64,000 nt of DNA from the NCBI GenBank assembly GCA_022226935.1, contig CP092081.1, forward strand, positions 1,382,386 to 1,446,385. Reading direction: 5' to 3'. The first letter of the stretch is position 1. Each line of letters opens with the position of its first letter. This document shows positions 1 to 4,475 of the stretch, piece by piece. The position numbers were made by a program, and so were the translations under genes. This DNA is from Nitrospira sp. (GTDB lineage: Bacteria > Nitrospirota > Nitrospiria > Nitrospirales > Nitrospiraceae). Below the pieces are notes generated by a model. It was not told the DNA's origin, ran no database searches, and saw only the letters and a program-made list of their open reading frames with translations.

Positions 1-69
1 TACCTGGAGTTTGCGAGGTGCAGTCACATATCGAATCCGTCCTACTTTGACCATATAGATCAAGTGAAG

Positions 70-127
70 CGGGGGCTGCGCCCCCGATCCCCCCGGCCGT
101 CCGGTCCATTGGTCCGGAACGGCCGGG
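70..127. repeat. two adjacent GC-rich hairpins
   Basis: Positions 70-86 form a perfect 7-bp stem (CGGGGGC / GCCCCCG) with a 3-nt loop. Positions 92-100 (CCCGGCCGT) pair perfectly with 119-127, and the inner CCGG at 101-104 pairs with 114-117 with one bulged base. They lie downstream of the leftward Rep-like operon, so they could be a strong terminator or a structured origin of a rolling-circle element. I see no gene in the rest of 1-341. Confidence 0.5.
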
Positions 128-341: not shown

Positions 342-593
342 TTAGTGGCGGTAATTGCGAAACGTGAGGCCAGCGCAGGCGCAGCACAGTAGGATTTCTC
401 TGGCTACGCCGTCACACTGGTAACAGATGCGCCCCCACATGCGATCAGCGTGACAAAACTCGCACAAGCGTTCATGGCTGTGTGCCGCACAGAGCCAGCC
501 CTTTCGGGCGCGATCATAGATGAGGCCAGGCCGTCCGCAGTACGTAGGTCCAAACAGGGAATCAACTTTCCTGGCACAGCCATTAACAGTCAT
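342..593 (-). CDS. small cysteine-rich (zinc-ribbon-like) protein of the mobile element
   Basis: An 83-residue protein of no family I recognise. It has nine cysteines, including CEFC near residue 45, ICYQC about twelve residues later and LCCAC near residue 70, with several histidines. This arrangement suggests one or two zinc-binding knuckles. Its start codon overlaps the stop of the Rep-like gene in an ATGA arrangement (590-593), so it is probably translated by coupling as the last gene of the leftward mobile-element operon. A DNA-binding accessory to replication is possible but is inference. Confidence 0.6.
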   Translation of the reverse strand: MTVNGCARKVDSLFGPTYCGRPGLIYDRARKGWLCAAHSHERLCEFCHADRMWGRICYQCDGVAREILLCCACAGLTFRNYRH

Positions 594-1336
594 GCTTTAG
601 AAAAGGTGAGGCCTTTCCCCAAAACGAGTTGCAGAATAAATCCGTCGAACCAGATGGCATGACCCGCGAGCAGGTCTTCCCAGGTCTTGAAAAGGACAAC
701 GCGAGGGATTTCGATTTCCCCTCTAATCCGACGAAAAGCATTCCTGCTCGACCACTGATTGCGCATTTCTTCCCACAAGGTGCTCATAGGGAAGCCGAGC
801 GACCGTTTCCAGGACCAACACATATTCACGTACCCCGATTGATCCTGAACGTATTGGCTGATCACATACCGACTGAGGCGATTGCGAGAGCGGTTTCCAG
901 GTTTGTAGGACTTAATCCAGACGACTGGAGCCCCGTGGAGGCCTTCCCATTGTGCCGACAGCCATTCGTGCGAGATCCAGAACCGGCGAGCCCGTTCACC
1001 ATCGGGGATTCGCCAAGCCCAAAAGATATGCAGCACGCCGTGACCTTCTTCCGTGCGAACTTGGTAATACTCCAGGCCTCGAAAGCCGAGCTGTCGTTCG
1101 ATCCGTTGACGTAATTGCTTATGGTGATAGGTCAGCTTGTCGGCCTGGCCGCCTTGTGCGGTAGACAGGGTGACCCATAACACTTGGAAGTGATGGGCCT
1201 CCCAAAACCACAAGAGCGAACGGACCCGTTGATACCCACGCTTTTGTTTGCGCGACCATTCCTGCCTGGCAGGCCGTTCGCGTGACTCAGGGTCTTGAGG
1301 GGCTGATTCGAATCTGGATGAATAGGCCTCAGCCAT
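590..1336 (-). CDS. putative replication initiator (Rep)-like protein
   Basis: A 248-residue protein resembling rolling-circle replication initiators in layout. There is a beta-strand ending in VTLSTA (motif-1 like, about residues 53-61), then EEGHGVLHIFWAW (about residues 96-108) where the metal-binding HUH motif would fall, then RYVISQYVQ with two tyrosines about four residues apart, where a catalytic tyrosine would lie. The histidine motif is degenerate: H-x3-H, with Phe where the second HUH His is expected. The protein is rich in Trp and Arg. Its start overlaps the preceding small ORF by 8 nt (ATGGCTGA), so translation is coupled. An inactive or divergent Rep, or an unrelated DNA-binding protein, cannot be excluded. 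Confidence 0.5.
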   Translation of the reverse strand: MAEAYSSRFESAPQDPESRERPARQEWSRKQKRGYQRVRSLLWFWEAHHFQVLWVTLSTAQGGQADKLTYHHKQLRQRIERQLGFRGLEYYQVRTEEGHGVLHIFWAWRIPDGERARRFWISHEWLSAQWEGLHGAPVVWIKSYKPGNRSRNRLSRYVISQYVQDQSGYVNMCWSWKRSLGFPMSTLWEEMRNQWSSRNAFRRIRGEIEIPRVVLFKTWEDLLAGHAIWFDGFILQLVLGKGLTFSKA

Positions 1337-1523
1337 GAAACGTCTCCTCAGATGGTGGTGGTGGCGAGAAAGCCGGGAGAGACGAACTCTGGGGACTCGT
1401 AGAAGTACTGCTAATCAAGCCGGTGAGTCGTCGTGCACCCTGGAGCAGAAGAGCCTGCAGGCGTGAGCTGCGCTCTTCTCTCGCGTGTGAATTGACAGGG
1501 ATGAAATGGACTTCAATCTTCAT
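1329..1523 (-). CDS. small hypothetical protein between Xre and Rep-like genes
   Basis: A 64-residue frame starting MKIEVHFIPV, with a short beta-strand, a basic helix (LQALLLQGARRL) and a Pro/Ser-rich tail. I do not recognise a family. The chosen ATG lies inside the last codons of the upstream Xre gene (11-nt overlap), and the stop overlaps the start of the Rep-like gene by 8 nt. Those overlaps are the main support that it is real, because the frame is short. A longer frame opening at 1601 would overlap most of the Xre gene and is not credible. Confidence 0.5.
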   Translation of the reverse strand: MKIEVHFIPVNSHAREERSSRLQALLLQGARRLTGLISSTSTSPQSSSLPAFSPPPPSEETFHG

Positions 1524-1779
1524 TGGGGTGCCCATTGGGCAACGCATGATCATGGGAAAGATCGGGTGTCTTTTCAGCCTGCAACTCGAAGAGTTCATCA
1601 ACGGTGCAACCGAAATACTCAGCGAGGAGAAGGGCGACCTGCAGACTCGGTACCGCCTTGCCCTGCTCCATTTTGGTGACGTAGGAACGATTCACCCGTA
1701 TCCTGCGTGCCAGGGTAGCCTTGGAAATGCCGCGTTGCGCTTGTCGAGCCCGCCATTCTTTCAGGTGATTTTTGATCAT
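1513..1779 (-). CDS. Xre-family helix-turn-helix regulator
   Basis: An 88-residue protein that is almost wholly one Cro/C1-type helix-turn-helix domain. The recognisable core is ATLARRIRVNRSYVTKMEQG followed by SLQVALLLAEYF, with a short acidic tail. It is first in the leftward operon, preceded by a good ribosome site (GGAGG, 7 nt before the ATG) and a promoter at 1800-1828. As in temperate phages and integrative elements, it probably represses its own operon and/or the divergent one. It faces a second Xre-type regulator at 1887, an arrangement typical of a lysogeny-like switch. Confidence 0.85.
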   Translation of the reverse strand: MIKNHLKEWRARQAQRGISKATLARRIRVNRSYVTKMEQGKAVPSLQVALLLAEYFGCTVDELFELQAEKTPDLSHDHALPNGHPNED

Positions 1780-1886: not shown

Positions 1887-2267
1887 ATGAATACTCCAGA
1901 GCTCAATCGAGAAACTCCCCAAGCCCCGCAGGGTTTTCGCGCCCTGGTCAAAAAGCGAATGGAAGAGGTGAATCTCAGTCTACGGACTGTGGCCGCCGAA
2001 ACGGGGATTTCCCCGGCTTATCTCTCTCGTTTGTTATCTGGCGAACGGGGACTTCCGCCAGACGATGAGATGATTCTGAGACTGGCCGAGGTCCTGCGCA
2101 TCGATCCGCCTGAGCGGCTGCTTGTGGAAGCGAAGCGAGTGCCGAATCTACTGCTTCCGGCCCTTTTGAGCGCTCACCAAGCCGTGTCGAGCGCAGAACT
2201 GAAGGAAGCGATGAAGCAGTTAAAGGCGGTGATTGTCCAGCAACGAAAGAGGAGATTTCGGCGATGA
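1887..2267 (+). CDS. Xre-family regulator (ImmR-like)
   Basis: A 126-residue protein with an N-terminal Cro/C1 helix-turn-helix (about residues 10-65: LSLRTVAAETGISPAYLSRL) and a helical C-terminal half ending in a basic tail. It overlaps the following ImmA-like protease gene by ATGA. The pairing of an Xre repressor with a co-encoded ImmA protease is the switch of elements such as ICEBs1, where the protease cleaves the repressor to release excision; the same logic is inferred here. The start follows the promoter at 1849-1878 by 8 nt, so the leader is extremely short or leaderless. Confidence 0.85.
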   Translation: MNTPELNRETPQAPQGFRALVKKRMEEVNLSLRTVAAETGISPAYLSRLLSGERGLPPDDEMILRLAEVLRIDPPERLLVEAKRVPNLLLPALLSAHQAVSSAELKEAMKQLKAVIVQQRKRRFRR

Positions 2268-2833
2268 AGACGGTATCCGGTCTGCTCCACTCGTTCATCC
2301 AGTGGTTGCGACGACCGGAACGCTTTATTCAGAAACTCCAAGCTATCTATCCCCACTGCCAAACGCTCCCTTTCCACAATCAAGAAGATGCTGCGGCCCA
2401 ACAGGGCGTCGAGTTGCTTGAAACCACGTTCAGCCCTAAGATTGAAGGTATAACGACCAGGGACGAGGGCCAGGTCATCATTGTGACTCGCCGTGGCCTC
2501 AGTCCGCTGAATCGACAATTTGTCATTGCCCACGAATTGGGGCATGTCCATTTGCATCTTCCCGACATGAAAGACACGGAGGAGGCAGCCTTGCTCACTC
2601 CGAATGATCACCGAGACATCGAGGCTGATGCGTTTGCCCTTGTCTGGTTGATGGGGTCCTTACCGAAGGAGCGACTAGAGCGAGAAGTCTTCCCGTATGT
2701 GCTCAATAATCGCGAAATGGCCTGGCGCGCACTGCGTGTGATTGGCTACCTGGCGTGGTATCACCAGCGCATCCGCTTGGCGAACTGGCTGGAACGCGCC
2801 TGCTTGGCCCTACAAGAGAAAGGAACGGCATAA
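2264..2833 (+). CDS. ImmA/IrrE-family metallopeptidase
   Basis: A 189-residue protein with the zinc-protease motif HELGH (in IAHELGHVHLH, about residue 90) and a downstream EADAFA segment supplying the third ligand, both characteristic of the ImmA/IrrE (DUF955) family. These proteases inactivate Xre-type repressors. It sits between its likely target regulator (ATGA overlap) and the serine recombinase (TAATG overlap), so the three genes form one coupled unit controlling and carrying out excision. Confidence 0.87.
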   Translation: MKTVSGLLHSFIQWLRRPERFIQKLQAIYPHCQTLPFHNQEDAAAQQGVELLETTFSPKIEGITTRDEGQVIIVTRRGLSPLNRQFVIAHELGHVHLHLPDMKDTEEAALLTPNDHRDIEADAFALVWLMGSLPKERLEREVFPYVLNNREMAWRALRVIGYLAWYHQRIRLANWLERACLALQEKGTA

Positions 2834-4377
2834 TGGCAGTTACACCCGTCCCGACCATTTGCGGGCTCTATACGCGCGTCTCGACGCGGAATCAGGCAGA
2901 CACCGAATACAGTTCTCTCGAAACCCAACGCGAAAAGCTGGAGGCCTACTGCAAGAGCCAGGATCAATACGTCATTTATCGAGTCTATGAAGACGCTGGC
3001 TTCTCGGCGGATACGATGAATCGACCGGCTCTGAAGGAAATGCTGCAGGATATTCGTACTGGACGGATATCCTGCGTGCTGGCGTACAAAATTGATCGAT
3101 TAACCAGATCCGTGAAAGATTTCCATGTCCTGATGGATCTATTCGACCGCCACGGCGCGAAGTTCGTGTCGATTACCCAAAGTCTTGATACGCATCATCC
3201 GATGGGACGACTGCTGCGGAACATCCTCCTCGACTTTGCCCAATTTGAACGGGAAATGACGGCGGATCGTACCCGAGACAAGATGCAGCAACGGGCCACG
3301 AAGGGCCTGTGGAATGGCGGAATTGTTCCCTTCGGCTACCGCAATGAAGATAAGCGCCTGGTCAGACATCCGGAGGAAGCCGCCTGTGTGCAATTCATAT
3401 TTCAGCAGTTTGTCCAAGACCCATCACTGACCCGACTTCGTGCCGAGCTCCATCGCAGAGGATGGCTTTCGAGGAGCGGGAAGCAGTGGGGAAAGATGAC
3501 GCTGGCCTATATCCTGGCAAATCCCGTGTATTGCGGGCGCACGCAGTTTAACGACCAACTATTCCAGGGGGAACACGAAGCGTTGATTGAGGAGGGGCTG
3601 TATCACAAGGTTCAATCGCTTCCTCGCGATCATGGCAGAGCGGTTACCAAGATCCAACGGACATTTCTTCTCAAGGGATTGCTCCGATGCAGTGTCTGCC
3701 AGTCGTTTATGAGCCCTCACTACACGCAGAAGCGCCGAAAGGATCAATCAATCAACCGAATTGCCTACTATCGCTGCACGAAGACCATGCAGCACAGCAA
3801 CAGCGTCTGCCCCATCAAAGCCCTCAATGCCGACGCGGTAGAAAATCAGGTTGTTGAATATCTATCCACCCTGAGCCAGCAAGCGGAATGGGTAAAAGTC
3901 ACAGTCGAGGAGTTGAACCGGGACCAAAAAGAGCAAGTGCGACCGTTGGAACAGGAGGCGATCCGGCTGAAAGCGAGCCTGAATCGGCTGGAACGCGAAA
4001 TAGATCGATTGGTGCGAGGGGTAGGGCAGGGGACTGTATCCGTCCAACGCCTTGAAGAGGAGATGCGCCGGCAGCAGCAGGAACAACATAGCCTAGAAGC
4101 TCAATACCAGGCCGTGCAACGACAGATCCAGGAACATACGGCGAGGGAATATGATGCAGAGGTTGTGCTACGCAACCTGAAGAATTTTCAACGAATCTTC
4201 GCGGCTTTGCTTCCGAAAGAGAAGATGGAAGTACTGCGGTGTTTGGTGCGAGATATCATCGTCCACCCCGACAAGCTCGTCTTTAATATCTTTGAACTTG
4301 ACGAGGTGGGAACGAGTTCGCAAGAGCGTAAAGGTTGTCTCCCCGGGCAGGACTCGAACCTGCGACCAGCCGGTTAA
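2833..4377 (+). CDS. large serine recombinase (integrase), reading into tRNA-Asn
   Basis: A 514-residue large serine recombinase. The N-terminal resolvase domain has the catalytic serine in YTRVSTRNQ (Ser17) and the arginine-bearing IDRLTRS segment. A recombinase domain follows (about residues 160-270), then a zinc ribbon (CSVC, then YRC and CPIK, about 290-340) and a long coiled coil (about 350-450). The start at 2833 overlaps the protease stop; a frame extending further left is out-of-context. The last dozen residues (CLPGQDSNLRPAG) are the antisense translation of the tRNA-Asn 3' half, and the TAA stop is in the anticodon region. The native C-terminus in the excised form probably differs. 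Confidence 0.93.
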   Translation: MAVTPVPTICGLYTRVSTRNQADTEYSSLETQREKLEAYCKSQDQYVIYRVYEDAGFSADTMNRPALKEMLQDIRTGRISCVLAYKIDRLTRSVKDFHVLMDLFDRHGAKFVSITQSLDTHHPMGRLLRNILLDFAQFEREMTADRTRDKMQQRATKGLWNGGIVPFGYRNEDKRLVRHPEEAACVQFIFQQFVQDPSLTRLRAELHRRGWLSRSGKQWGKMTLAYILANPVYCGRTQFNDQLFQGEHEALIEEGLYHKVQSLPRDHGRAVTKIQRTFLLKGLLRCSVCQSFMSPHYTQKRRKDQSINRIAYYRCTKTMQHSNSVCPIKALNADAVENQVVEYLSTLSQQAEWVKVTVEELNRDQKEQVRPLEQEAIRLKASLNRLEREIDRLVRGVGQGTVSVQRLEEEMRRQQQEQHSLEAQYQAVQRQIQEHTAREYDAEVVLRNLKNFQRIFAALLPKEKMEVLRCLVRDIIVHPDKLVFNIFELDEVGTSSQERKGCLPGQDSNLRPAG

Positions 4378-4411
4378 CAGCCGGCTGCTCTACCAACTGA
4401 GCTACCGGGGA
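4339..4411 (-). tRNA. tRNA-Asn(GTT)
   Basis: On the minus strand a full cloverleaf is present: acceptor TCCCCGG/CCGGGGA, D-arm GCTC/GAGC, anticodon stem GCCGG/CCGGC with loop CTGTTAA (anticodon GTT), and T-arm GCAGG/CCTGC with TTCGAGT loop. The discriminator base is G and no CCA is encoded. The 3' half overlaps the end of the serine recombinase frame and is the probable integration site of the element on its left. Confidence 0.97.
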
Positions 4412-4475
4412 ACGAGGGTGTAGTTAACGAACGAGGGCATTCTAACAAAACTGAAGAGCGAAGGGGGAGACTTTT

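Follow-up and report, generated by a model that had tools for sequence, protein, structure and literature searches.

The recombinase gene and its tRNA-Asn target

The window, a stretch of 64,000 nucleotides from a Nitrospira genome (G000), begins within a putative integrative element whose last gene runs into a tRNA gene on the opposite strand (Table 1). This gene encodes a large serine recombinase, with an N-terminal Resolvase domain (PF00239, 5.7e-39) followed by Recombinase (PF07508, 9.7e-15) and zinc ribbon (Zn_ribbon_recom, PF13408, 8.2e-13) domains via Pfam, and an integrase match via PHROG. Residues 1-501 are encoded by the element, while residues 502-514 and the stop codon are read from the antisense strand of the tRNA-Asn gene, the last 13 codons (4336-4374) giving CLPGQDSNLRPAG and the TAA covering two bases of the anticodon (4376-4378). 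The earlier note had claimed just such an ending, with the stop codon taken from the tRNA, and relatives carry the same one. Every matched domain lies upstream of the 8-bp core described below, and solved serine integrases align only up to ~residue 478; a tail past this point could be regulatory or dispensable. The tail had no recognisable degradation tag, and an AlphaFold model of the protein, built from 8 close sequences, had a mean pLDDT of 44.5 and was not used.

Table 1. Features at the recombinase locus and copies of the tail motif. Positions are those of the window unless a locus is named.
Feature	Position	Strand	Basis or remark
Contig-end overlap	1..85	+	Exact match to the final 85 bases of the contig that stops at G000:C1:1571231
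248-aa conserved element gene	590..1336	-	tblastn: also in related elements with a tyrosine integrase
HTH regulator, divergent	1513..1779	-	Domain match
HTH (Xre/Cro-type) regulator	1887..2267	+	Domain and PHROG matches
ImmA/IrrE-type (Peptidase_M78) gene, integrase module	2264..2833	+	Conserved beside the recombinase in G015 and G005
Large serine recombinase gene	2833..4377	+	ORF; 514 aa; TAA 4375-4377
attR core, bracket of crossover	4335..4342	+	TTGTCTCC here; TTGGCTCC in element-carrying relatives
Host-encoded C-terminal tail CLPGQDSNLRPAG and stop	4336..4377	+	WLPGQDSNLRPAG and stop in relatives
tRNA-Asn(GTT), target gene	4336..4411	-	Relatives' tRNA coordinates, including encoded CCA
LHGLYPSRTLQFALQR motif copies	L046 13002, 13969; L055 9409, 10608; L098 10697, 9588; L099 10305, 8903		

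ARAGORN placed the tRNA-Asn(GTT) gene at 4337-4412 (-), which we shifted to the position in Table 1 by comparison with relatives. It appears to be the sole tRNA-Asn gene of the genome, given the other checked matches of a whole-genome search with this tRNA were different tRNAs. The codon of the conserved tryptophan at the junction, TGG, is the complement of the tRNA CCA. In the window genome the encoded CCA (4336-4338) reads ACA, possibly a sequencing error, and the junction tryptophan becomes cysteine; element-carrying relatives have CCA and tryptophan. A scan for promoters and terminators around the tRNA gave no match.

Element borders and assembly

Both ends of the element contain TTGGCTCC, the 8-bp core, which lies at the tRNA CCA end. 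It is a short crossover core with no long direct repeat, and a short core alone is what is expected to be shared between the ends for a serine recombinase. No repeat of the tRNA half was found elsewhere in the genome. As only the core is shared, the body of the tRNA is host DNA, and the last residues of the recombinase are host-encoded. The repeat of the tRNA 3′ half that the earlier note had looked for at the other border is therefore absent; with no tRNA half duplicated, this test does not apply here and would have misled. The att half-sites were also examined for dyad symmetry to fix the point of crossover, with no consistent centre.

Unoccupied sites in relatives, the comparison proposed beforehand, consist of a conserved gene (X), a terminator-like hairpin, TTGGCTCC, and the tRNA, with the recombinase absent. 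Among relatives of the same genus (Nitrospira), the left neighbour of the tRNA is either the same recombinase or gene X, and many relatives carry the same tRNA without the recombinase. In the window genome, the X flank (C1:1567911-1569383) is followed by TTGGCTCC and then ACGGACCTTATTCC, diverging from the empty sites after the core, and attL (TTGGCTCCACGGACC) lies at C1:1569386 on the contig with the left part of the element.

This left end is 182 kb away from the recombinase, and a rearrangement was considered and rejected in favour of scaffold gaps with an overlap between contig ends. The 4.23 Mb genome is scaffolded, with gaps of exactly 100 N in the stretches inspected, including G000:C1:1571232-1571331 and 1382286-1382385, the latter directly before window position 1. 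Because the contig that stops at 1571231 has 85 identical bases in common with the start of the window, the scaffold order is probably wrong at these two gaps. Should the two overlapping contigs adjoin, the element would be ~6.1 kb. In G015, by comparison, gene X, the left end (at 627117), cargo, recombinase, and tRNA all lie on one contig, and the element measures ~10.6 kb.

The same arrangement in relatives

Six other intact copies of the window recombinase family end in the same tRNA and in the same frame, a seventh (G004) ends likewise in a tandem neighbour, and the family and the tRNA site occur together in seven genomes. Given these six copies, and that many relatives have the tRNA alone, we do not consider the ending in the tRNA to be chance. 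A second recombinase family, 26-29% identical, also ends in this tRNA in four Nitrospiraceae genera. Every intact copy of both families crosses the core in one frame, giving W-L; a single substitution makes the W a C in the window genome. Where insertions are in tandem (G004 and G019), the frame of the upstream recombinase continues into the left end of the next element, so the tail depends on the neighbour. Serine-recombinase elements stacked at one tRNA-Asn apparently number three in G004 (L095/L096) and two in G019 (L059).

Further afield, relatives sharing 31-39% identity terminate within tRNA-Arg, -Thr (Sphingomonas, for example), -Ser (Haematobacter, for example), and -Asn, and relatives in IMG/VR end in tRNA-Ser, tRNA-Arg, or tRNA 3′ fragments, which later insertions seem to have split from the remainder of the tRNA; close relatives of the window recombinase were not found in viral contigs. 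Sinorhizobium meliloti pSymB encodes one such relative, at 39% identity, whose C-terminus runs into tRNA-Arg and reads KWRTRQDSNL before the stop. The far end of this element, mapped against an empty plasmid, encodes the tail WRAREDETGHSYVIVAPIHF and a stop, a recognisable relative of the second-family tail in another phylum.

We also noted that right ends of the second family (e.g., L095, L144, and L147) encode the last codons of the recombinase within a GC-rich hairpin on the tRNA-sense strand (GGGCACTCC..GGGGTGCCC, with a T-run in some), which may stand in for the displaced terminator of the tRNA. The window family has a different hairpin, located further inside the element.

The predicted circle-form tail

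When the recombinase end, core, and left end are joined in silico to form attP, the reading frame stays open for ~20 more codons. In the window genome, the predicted attP-form C-terminus is WLHGPYSTRTLQFHMSRNVSC, compared with the tRNA-encoded form (CLPGQDSNLRPAG here, WLPGQDSNLRPAG in relatives), each followed by a stop. The earlier claim that the integrated and excised forms encode different C-termini is thus supported by inference from both mapped ends, and the excised-form tail is conserved as protein. Other window-family copies yield joined-form tails beginning WLHGPYSSRTLQFHM and WLPGLYPRRTLRFAL, or reading WLHGLYPSRTIQFALQRKATLNY to the stop. Across the left ends of this family, the recombinase frame scored far above the other five (899 vs. 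449 in the second-best frame; none of 3000 column shuffles reached this score), and variation at third codon positions was ~2x that at positions 1 and 2 (p ~0.005).

The conserved tail of the second family differs from that of the window family (WLPGNGEAGQWHCEVRITSKL, or beginning WLPGRDQSGHWVCSIRM, both closed by a stop), and its left ends were found in five Nitrospiraceae genera. Left ends defined by position gave frame scores of 166 vs. 107 (0 of 3000 shuffles as high), and all eight gave 642 vs. 331 (0 of 2000), the former being the cleaner test, as seven of the eight behind the latter score were found with a pattern fixing part of the motif and designed from earlier left ends. This pattern matched 6 of 175 family genomes, five of which carry a second-family recombinase, and a reversed control had no match. 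These frame tests on sequence speak for a protein-coding role rather than a DNA site alone, though the element-side DNA doubles as an att half-site, and so DNA constraint contributes to the conservation. Some relatives on viral contigs have unrelated sequence past the core, without a native-like tail, and of the pattern searches of viral contigs for native tails in free form, one gave no match and another a single match that looks like chance.

Proposed integration and exchange of the recombinase C-terminus

The best explanation, to which we assign a probability of roughly 0.7, is that the element targets tRNA-Asn at its CCA end and that the recombinase gene spans attP, such that a conserved tail would be exchanged on integration. 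Crossover by the serine recombinase within TTGGCTCC would place the element at the CCA end, with the reading frame of the recombinase gene open across attP. The circle form of the enzyme would end in the conserved element-encoded tail of ~20 residues; in the chromosome, this tail would be severed and left at the opposite end of the element, with 13 residues and a stop from the tRNA antisense strand in its place. The tail may matter to the enzyme, for instance by favouring integration, or its loss may stabilise the inserted state. The target, both ends, the open frame across the join, the conserved far-end tail, and the arrangement common to the two families are demonstrated at the level of sequence. 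From these, the circle presumably exists and is translated with the element-encoded tail, and the tail swapped by integration looks to be under selection; altered recombinase activity or stability after the exchange is hypothetical, as is the switch between integration and excision raised in the earlier note. As a more speculative extension, which we consider less likely than not, the tail might act as a state sensor across a broad branch targeting tRNA ends in Nitrospiraceae and Alphaproteobacteria, the circle tail giving integration competence or a short life and the tRNA tail changing activity or stability.

Alternatively, the overlap could be passive, the recombinase core ending near residue 487, the rest being filler read from any sequence that happens to follow the core, and the far end being conserved solely as a DNA half-site. 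The limit of alignment to solved integrases is in keeping with this, as are the integrated tails, which vary freely with context (including the ends of other elements in tandem arrays), and the unrelated tails of some relatives. However, in both families the far ends are conserved in the recombinase frame well beyond what other frames or shuffled columns show, and a recognisable far-end relative exists in Sinorhizobium, which makes this account unlikely. Somewhat less likely again, and confined to the window family, is a reading of the far-end motif as a separate small coding unit of the element, joined in frame to the recombinase by a one-in-three coincidence. Apart from the recombinase, ~15 copies of the motif are indeed found across several Nitrospira genomes; some of these have an ATG (MASKSLHPLYPSRTLEFALQRI and a stop) and some stand in arrays. 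The motif is also present in tyrosine-integrase elements carrying the same 248-aa gene, so it may have arisen other than as a recombinase tail; yet the separate-unit account would leave unexplained the second family and Sinorhizobium, where a different far-end peptide lies in the same frame.

Transfer RNA 3′ ends are the classic target of tyrosine integrases, and related backbones carry such enzymes, so the serine recombinase might be a passenger in a tyrosine-type island; this is very improbable given the absent tRNA fragment, the core of just 8 bp, the lack of a tyrosine integrase among the ORFs of the element's window part, and the joint occurrence of recombinase family and site in seven genomes. 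An assembly or frameshift artefact, which the 100-N gap before the window might suggest, is refuted by relatives, as independent assemblies, including single-contig G004, have the same layout.

Relation to known systems

The recombinase resembles the serine integrases TP901-1, A118, and SPbeta YokA in its Resolvase-Recombinase-zinc ribbon-coiled coil order and short crossover core, and differs from them in being directed to the CCA end of a tRNA and in having the 3′ end of its gene run across attP, with a change of the protein on integration. Directionality in serine integrases is normally attributed to a separate factor, the enzyme integrating alone and excising only with that factor. The gene layout seen here would provide a built-in, DNA-encoded difference between the inserted and circular enzyme, and if the state-sensor proposal is true, the enzyme senses whether it is integrated through the sequence of the gene that encodes it.

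Gene-disrupting recombinases (SSV1-type "suicidal" integrases) have been described as confined to Archaea (PMC8371274). As in those, attP lies within the integrase gene (here by in silico joining of the ends), integration separates the gene, and the site is a tRNA gene, as are most SSV1-type sites. Unlike those, the enzyme here is a bacterial serine recombinase that would exchange ~20 C-terminal residues with its matched domains whole, and no tyrosine recombinase is fragmented by integration. Islander-type tyrosine islands at tRNA genes have a displaced tRNA fragment at the far end, which this element lacks. The nearest functional precedent is integration-dependent immunity in mycobacteriophage BPs, where attP lies inside the repressor gene and the prophage and circular C-termini differ with proven functional effect (PMC4557955); C-termini differing by state are predicted here too, although the gene is a recombinase with attP at its 3′ end. 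Serine recombinases at tRNA genes have been reported at least once, in Paracoccus prophage vB_PamS_Pami6, with a predicted tRNA-Met site (PMC6536676) and with no C-terminal exchange that we found described. A non-exhaustive literature search found no serine recombinase reported to replace its C-terminus.

The comparison also brings out a large set of serine recombinases that target the CCA ends of many tRNAs; these can help map islands not covered by tRNA tools restricted to tyrosine integrases and are potential integration tools with conserved targets.

Other genes of the element and related elements

The 248-aa protein had no family match in Pfam, NCBIfam, PADLOC, or PHROG; it is 82-95% conserved among elements, and motifs seen by eye recall rolling-circle Rep proteins. 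Related elements (L098 3185-6162 and L099 3588-6511) keep this gene with a tyrosine integrase instead, and the tyrosine integrase ORF of L098 also appears to end in antisense tRNA (tail judged by eye). The motif encoding LHGLYPSRTLQFALQR repeats every ~1-1.7 kb between cargo genes with protein-like conservation. As candidate integron attC sites, these repeats showed R-box-like ends by eye in some copies only and no Rfam match. The element of G015, whose contig is also that of L118 (Nitrospira defluvii NOB1), carries defence cargo in the form of a SIR2-type prokaryotic Argonaute (L055 12398-15559; PADLOC, 1051 bits) together with a protein that weakly resembles gasdermins (L055 9497-10390; 1.3e-08).
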